The notes beneath the pieces are model-generated. The model saw nothing but the letters and a program-made list of their open reading frames with translations, was not told the origin of the DNA and ran no database searches. Positions 61,309-62,291 of a stretch of DNA of 64,000 nucleotides are shown here, one piece after another (within the stretch, counting starts at the first letter, position 1; every line of letters starts with the position of its first letter). The position numbers were made by a program, and so were the translations under genes. This DNA comes from Chitinophagales bacterium (GTDB taxonomy: Bacteria > Bacteroidota > Bacteroidia > Chitinophagales > Chitinophagaceae): NCBI GenBank assembly GCA_015655125.1, contig JAATFP010000078.1, forward strand, positions 1-64,000, given 5' to 3'.

Positions 61309-61340
61309 AATTACGGATTACGAATTACGAATTGCGAATT
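61309..61340. repeat. 7-nt-period array AATTACG/GATTACG/AATTACG/AATTGCG/AATT
   Basis: Same unit as 58966-59000, opposite orientation. Confidence 0.92.
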
Positions 61341-61381
61341 GTTTAAAATTTTAGTAACTCAACTACAGAAAAGGACTGCGG

Positions 61382-61437
61382 GCGACTGACGATCGACCAC
61401 CGACCACCGACGACCGACGACCGACCACCGACCAGCG
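61382..61437. repeat. 7-nt-period array, eight units around ACCACCG/ACGACCG
   Basis: GCGACTG/ACGATCG/ACCACCG/ACCACCG/ACGACCG/ACGACCG/ACCACCG/ACCAGCG. Confidence 0.95.
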
Positions 61438-61493
61438 GTGAAAGGTTACATTCTGGTTGGTCATTGAGGTCTTTGGTCGTCGGTCGTCTCTCG

Positions 61494-62291
61494 TCAATCT
61501 CTAGCCTTTGTTATCTTATTGTAACTTGTAGAAATACCTTTAATTAGCGATGAACTGAAACCCTGATGTTCCATTTCATTCAGCCCGGCAATGGTGCAAC
61601 CTTTTGGTGTAGTTACCTTATCGATTTCCTGCTCGGGATGTGTGCCATTTTGAAGCAATAATTCCGCCGCGCCTCTTACCGTCTGGGCCGCGATAAGATT
61701 GGCCGTTTTAGAATCAAAGCCGATCTCTATGCCGCCCTGGATATTGGCGCGGATGTAGCGCATAGCGAAGGCCGTGCCGCAGGCGCCAAGCACGGTGGCC
61801 GCGTCCATGAGTTTTTCATCGATCACTGCAACCTTGCCCAATACATTAAAAAGATTGGTGACGTAACCTATCTGCGCTTCAGTGGCATTGCTGAAACCCA
61901 GGCAGGTCATGCTTTCCTGGATGGCAATGGCGGTATTAGGCATGGCACGGCAAACAGGCAATTTTTTATTAAGGATGCTTTCAATATCGTTGATTGTAAC
62001 ACCTGTAACCACCGACACCAACGTATGTTTTGAGTTCAGATCTTTTTTTAATCCGCTCAGCACTTCGCTTACCTGGAAAGGTTTGATGGCAAGAATCACC
62101 AGCTCCGATTGTTTTACCGCAGCATTGTTATCCGAAGTTACCTGCACACCTTTTTTCGCGAGCGCGGTAAGCGTTGCCGTATTTCTTTTTGTAACGATAA
62201 TGTCTGCGGGTTTGCAAAACCGGCTTTTGATCAGCCCTTCGGCGATCGCCGTTCCAAGATTTCCGCCACCGATGATGGTTATTTTTTGCAT
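61494..62291 (-). CDS. proC: pyrroline-5-carboxylate reductase
   Basis: ITIIGGGNLGTAIAEGL; VCRAMPNTAIAIQESMTCL; VTTPKGCTIAGLNEMEHQG. Confidence 0.95.
   Translation of the reverse strand: MQKITIIGGGNLGTAIAEGLIKSRFCKPADIIVTKRNTATLTALAKKGVQVTSDNNAAVKQSELVILAIKPFQVSEVLSGLKKDLNSKHTLVSVVTGVTINDIESILNKKLPVCRAMPNTAIAIQESMTCLGFSNATEAQIGYVTNLFNVLGKVAVIDEKLMDAATVLGACGTAFAMRYIRANIQGGIEIGFDSKTANLIAAQTVRGAAELLLQNGTHPEQEIDKVTTPKGCTIAGLNEMEHQGFSSSLIKGISTSYNKITKARD

Follow-up and report, generated by a model that had tools for sequence, protein, structure and literature searches.

The window of 64,000 nucleotides represents contig C45 in a draft genome of 3.75 Mb, to which Ferruginibacter and further Chitinophagaceae are the nearest named relatives. 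The spacer between proC and pyrG carries three arrays of heptanucleotide units (Table 1). An earlier note had read these as 4.5 copies of AATTACG, a second array at 61382-61437 and a third, inverted array running across the proC stop codon, the latter two being able to fold on each other. All three arrays were recovered, the second extending over 61378-61444 when degenerate edge units are counted.

Table 1. Features of the proC-pyrG region and a further heptad hairpin of the window
Feature	Position	Strand	Remarks
pyrG	59553-61202	-	downstream of proC, same strand
pyrG -7-like box TATCTTTG	61294-61301	-	from alignment with relatives
Array 1, AATTACG heptads	61309-61340	+	4.6 copies, 88% matches
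Array 2, GACCACC/GACGACC heptads, arm 1	61378-61444 (including degenerate edge units)	+	core 61394-61434
Loop between the arms of arrays 2 and 3	61438-61455		about 18 nt, no ORF
Array 3, unit GACNNNN, arm 2	about 61456-61503	-	carries the proC stop codon
proC	61494-62291	-	ends ...KITKARD*; stop TGA 61494-61496 inside the arm
ORF-less inverted heptad pair, GATCTAT unit	48838-48957		inner core common to copies on contigs C24 and C21

Array 1 starts 8 bases upstream of the pyrG box. Three tandem AATTACG units, allowing up to two mismatches, have 19 matches genome-wide; the reversed control has none. For the core of array 2, Tandem Repeats Finder reports the unit CGACCAC in 5.9 copies at 94%, and three such units (up to three mismatches) have 41 matches genome-wide, again with none for the reversed control. 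Array 3 is too degenerate for detection by this program. It matches the reverse complement of the array 2 unit at 24 of 28 positions (61468-61495), and its edge, GAGAGACGACCGAC, is shared by arrays on contigs C25 and C79. Arrays 2 and 3 belong together as the two inverted arms of one long imperfect hairpin built from a GACC unit. Array 1 stands apart, as a single arm with a unit from another family. The earlier view of two unrelated units side by side is correct for AATTACG and GACC, not for arrays 2 and 3, which repeat one unit in opposite orientations.

The folding of 61300-61510 that had been proposed was carried out and gave about -72 kcal/mol for either strand, with a z-score of about -4.5. 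In the predicted fold, which could form in RNA or in single-stranded DNA, the inverted repeats of arrays 2 and 3 make up a long terminal stem, which on the proC strand pairs unit by unit with the mismatches falling at the variable positions. An intrinsic terminator, i.e., a GC stem with a U tract, was not found at 61380-61500, and known Rfam families had no match at the pyrG-proC locus. Recent exact duplication by simple slippage, an origin which the earlier note had named as counting against its reading, is ruled out by the degenerate units and the inverted arms. Slippage in 7-nt steps may still be a route by which the length of the arms changes.

The hairpin is specific for this lineage. Relatives of the same genus have no heptads in the proC-pyrG spacer; the spacers of L045, L059 and L044 are empty. 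The last ProC residues in the window, ARD, are encoded by the heptad arm, and ProC of L045 and L059 ends with ...KIVKG*. The box TATCTTTG, which we take to be the Bacteroidota-type -7-like promoter box of pyrG, is kept in relatives without arrays (as CAAAGATA on the forward strand, 61294-61301). Beyond it the source genome has array 1, three relatives have ordinary sequence. Between the pyrG start and this box, at 61202-61300, lies an inverted motif GACC...GGTC which is largely conserved in the compared relatives, a possible pyrG leader hairpin.

A period of seven dominates far beyond this spacer. A lag-7 scan of the window returned 6 segments, shuffled sequences returned none, and the other lags from 2 to 30 gave nothing except an 18-nt repeat and the lags 14, 21 and 28. 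The window arrays are thus heptameric SSRs in the sense of tandem 7-nt units beyond chance. Two samples of the 3.75-Mb draft were scanned for periods. In 390 kb there are 25 period-7 segments versus 0-3 at any other period up to 13. In 566 kb period 7 is the sole strongly enriched unit length, with 51 arrays, a density which may be somewhat high because part of the sample was picked for contigs carrying AATTACG. Among 80 related loci (1.36 Mb, selected via proC) we counted 95 period-7 arrays, and no other tested period gave more than 29.

The arrays of the Chitinophagaceae are mostly intergenic and stand close against stop and start codons. Throughout the family, intergenic regions often hold inverted pairs of heptad arrays whose units are locus-specific. 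When a partner array within 200 bp is required to match at 22 or more of 28 positions, 11 of the 51 arrays in the own genome have an inverted partner and none has a direct one; in the relatives the figures are 32 and 10 of 95. At one site three sister species have retained a hairpin, yet the unit has changed in both arms, being either TAATTAA or TAGTTAG. The own genome contains 67 array pairs with an identical unit, 7.9 being expected. Some copies with the GACC unit share edge sequence, some of the GATC family share an inner core, which suggests copying and not local slippage alone. An inner core common to all families was rejected: AAATTTTTAGAGATTTT is present only in two GATC-family copies and, in a longer form, in four.

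In the relatives, arrays at 3'-ends are positioned right at stop codons and are G-rich above the local background. Arrays at 5' boundaries equal the local background, and an outward G-rich polarity as a general property was abandoned; it holds only for the 3'-end arrays in relatives and for the 5' arms of hairpins. The G/C polarity of the window hairpin is opposite to that of most other hairpins. What the arms enclose varies, since some pairs hold neither nothing nor an IVP gene but an ordinary terminator, as on contig C82 and at about 36.7 kb of the window. There, at 36700-36870, inverted heptad arms surround a canonical bidirectional terminator (AAAAGAGGATA...TATCCTCTTTT).

Arrays with the GACC unit are also found in frame within leuS and valS. 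The LeuRS linker contains the heptad-encoded ...TTDDGSLTTDNRRPTTD..., where most relatives have only few residues. This linker tolerates inserts, because at the same spot one relative carries the short peptide NPSPKGEG and another a DUF559 endonuclease ORF. The window itself has a decayed DUF559 endonuclease-like ORF at 51171-51464 with two in-frame TAA codons and palindromic ends, CCCCTAAAGGGG and CCCCCTTCAGGGGG; DUF559 ORFs that are intact and have similar ends are located in frame inside other genes of relatives, e.g., in LeuRS of G005. DUF559 was dismissed as the partner gene of the heptads, as its copies possess other palindromic ends.

The LeuRS finding led us to look for ORFs between heptad arms. 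In the own genome all six IVP (PF05635) loci have inverted heptad arms. They are located on C52/C25, two contigs overlapping by 141 bp, with GACC arms on both sides of the gene, on C24 (GTTCAAG), C109, C36 and C95 (GATCTAT), and, as a decayed copy, again on C95. The window hairpin thus has the arm unit of an IVP gene of the same genome, and its loop corresponds in position to the IVP gene of the ORF-bearing elements. The GATCTAT unit of the ORF-less pair in Table 1 likewise flanks the IVP gene on C95. A second ORF-less inverted pair next to proC (TTTAGAG/CTCTAAA, 62283-62412, in the proC-purL spacer) has the unit of the decayed copy. The IVP genes on C24 and C52 score above the Pfam gathering threshold of PF05635 (E 2.2e-28 and 1.4e-33), and an own IVP protein matches PDB 2gsc, the solved structure of the Xanthomonas campestris IVP XCC0516, with E 4.1e-5. 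An IVP gene with AATTACG arms was not found.

The association extends across phyla. Inverted heptad flanks accompany 38 of 50 IVP loci in 21 genomes versus 14 of 600 other genes (p about 3e-39), counted at a flank score of at least 15 with the source genome included and with loci that are not fully independent, some being orthologous. Within the IVP arms the identity at lags 7, 14 and 21 is 0.64, 0.61 and 0.62, and about 0.29 at most other lags. Three of five own IVP-arm units recur exactly in own ORF-less arrays; of 33 units taken from other genomes, one does so. Heptad arms, recognised by score or by eye, are present at 17 of 18 plasmid IVP loci. The hosts are cyanobacteria (Nostoc, Calothrix, Aulosira, Anabaena, Pseudanabaena galeata, Picosynechococcus, Geminocystis, Stanieria), Riemerella and Azospirillum; the sole exception is Pseudanabaena PCC 7367, and in a Nostoc HK-01 plasmid two arrays appear direct, not inverted. 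Heptad density does not significantly track the IVP count (rho 0.40, p 0.12, 16 genomes). A search for IVP via inverted pairs with long gaps was uninformative, as ordinary genes can sit between two separate hairpins, and the query used found no IVP in viral contigs.

To our knowledge, IVP proteins have no known function. The source genome encodes no recognisable reverse transcriptase, and we discarded such an enzyme as an actor in trans. A search for Y1_Tnp, the transposase partner of REP elements, returned one weak, sub-threshold match, on C114. Avd, an accessory protein of DGRs, is similar to PF05635 (PMC10053308).

The closest known system is the 23S rRNA IVS with an IVP/S23p ORF (Coxiella, Leptospira and others; PF05635), which likewise has inverted terminal repeats, a long stem and an IVP gene in the loop. 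ORF-less rRNA IVSs exist, and the window hairpin, whose loop has no ORF, is here called IVS-like and not an IVS. It lies between pyrG and proC and not inside an rRNA gene; in general the sites described here comprise intergenic spacers, linkers encoded in frame within proteins, and plasmids, and the arms consist of degenerate heptads whose unit is specific to the locus. In Coxiella, RNase III cuts the 23S IVS, which has a terminal stem of 28 bp and, ahead of the S23p ORF, GACAGAT heptads in variable number (PMC4990558); for the present hairpins such a cleavage is proposed by analogy. The GGGAATC and GGGGA(C/T)T heptads of Xanthomonas and Nostoc, with 70-75 inverted pairs per Xanthomonas genome, are also heterogeneous, intergenic and close to the 3' end of the upstream gene, but consist of a single G4-forming unit compared with several non-G4 units here; a link to IVP is not drawn in that report (Rehm 2015, PMC4692102). 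The TAACTGA repeats of Beggiatoaceae, Cyanobacteria and Bacteroidetes share the intergenic position, a patchy phyletic distribution and a suspected horizontal transfer, yet are described mainly as direct repeats of a single unit, unlike the window arms (MacGregor 2015, PMC4679880). Bacterial MITEs and REP/BIME palindromes are short, dispersed, palindromic and intergenic with a rarer protein-coding partner; here, heptad arrays make up the terminal repeats, and the partner is probably no transposase.

We consider it likely that the proC-pyrG spacer holds a single element, ORF-less and IVS-like, with arrays 2 and 3 as its inverted arms. This is based on the architecture of the locus, its lineage-specific presence, the unit in common with an IVP-bearing copy, and the association of IVP genes with heptads. 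In the proC transcript such a hairpin would be a substrate of RNase III, and by analogy to rRNA IVSs the transcript would be split without religation. New ORF-less copies would derive from IVP-type elements, and the length of the arms would shift by 7-nt slippage while both arms stay alike. The element would mainly be a selfish passenger, tolerated beside stop codons. It is presumably mobile; against this speak the frequent degeneracy of heptad copies and the heptad arrays of Xanthomonas, 90% of which keep their flanking genes (PMC4692102). In this scheme the arms would be the termini of the element; the order may also be the opposite, with IVP genes entering pre-existing heptad hairpins.

Other explanations have to be weighed. 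The arrays could be plain heptanucleotide microsatellites generated by a preference of the replication machinery for slipping in 7-nt steps, as put forward by Mrazek 2007, with template switching at a hairpin making the inverted copy, gene ends merely being tolerant and the IVP link being secondary. Period 7 is indeed stated to dominate in many bacteria (PMC4692102, and Mrazek 2007 as cited in PMC4679880), units turn over rapidly, as the TAATTAA and TAGTTAG hairpins at one site in sister species illustrate, and arms can surround ordinary terminators. We regard this as unlikely, because slippage alone predicts neither the recurrence of identical units at many loci of one genome, nor the core and edge sequences shared by GATC and GACC copies, nor the flanking of IVP genes, the latter even across phyla. 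A selected RNA signal between proC and pyrG, be it a hairpin terminator, an insulator or a stabiliser of the mRNA 3'-end, would agree with the strong fold predicted for both strands, with the G-rich arrays right at stop codons in relatives and with the hairpin site that outlived a change of its unit in three sister species. This too seems improbable: the stem is not followed by a U tract, relatives manage without the hairpin, arrays also reside in frame within leuS and valS, several pairs already hold a canonical terminator, and the polarity of the window hairpin is the reverse of most others.

Arrays which often adjoin starts or stops, as array 1 adjoins the promoter-like box of pyrG, could finally be binding sites for a heptad-recognising protein in phase variation or translational control, as proposed earlier for TAACTGA in Beggiatoaceae (PMC4679880). 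Many unrelated units per genome and differing units at orthologous sites are ill-suited to one sequence-specific regulator, and this possibility is very remote.

Arrays 2 and 3 belong to an arrangement which recurs genome-wide and family-wide, with the same arms flanking IVP genes. Bacterial heptanucleotide repeats have been reported repeatedly, and we know of no accepted cause. Heptads with inverted pairs, in Xanthomonas, and IVSs with IVP were each already known. Beyond the Coxiella rRNA IVS we found no paper joining heptad repeats generally to IVP, in a search which covered subscription journals thinly, so that an earlier description is possible. The near-constant link in Bacteroidota, Cyanobacteria and one alphaproteobacterial plasmid provides each side with a concrete, testable partner and raises the question whether IVP binds, copies or places heptad hairpins. 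Tentatively, and with somewhat more doubt than confidence, we propose a widespread class of mobile elements that is defined by its termini, inverted arrays of degenerate heptads, and whose protein is the Avd-like four-helix-bundle IVP. The heptads reported in Cyanobacteria, Xanthomonas, Beggiatoaceae and Bacteroidota would then mostly be ORF-less copies of it, kept up by a process that works in 7-nt steps and on the two arms jointly. For annotation this would carry a warning: odd C-terminal tails or linkers such as ARD in ProC or the insert in LeuRS would be element sequence.

Two observations concern the surroundings of IVP genes. In the cyanobacterial plasmids L299, L302 and L349 they are located inside CRISPR-Cas loci, between cas6 and cas4 or between cas10 and cmr3. 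In the four relatives L237, L279, L280 and L285, IVP and a RidA-like protein form an in-frame fusion with IVP on the upstream side, and the heptad arm encodes the linker.
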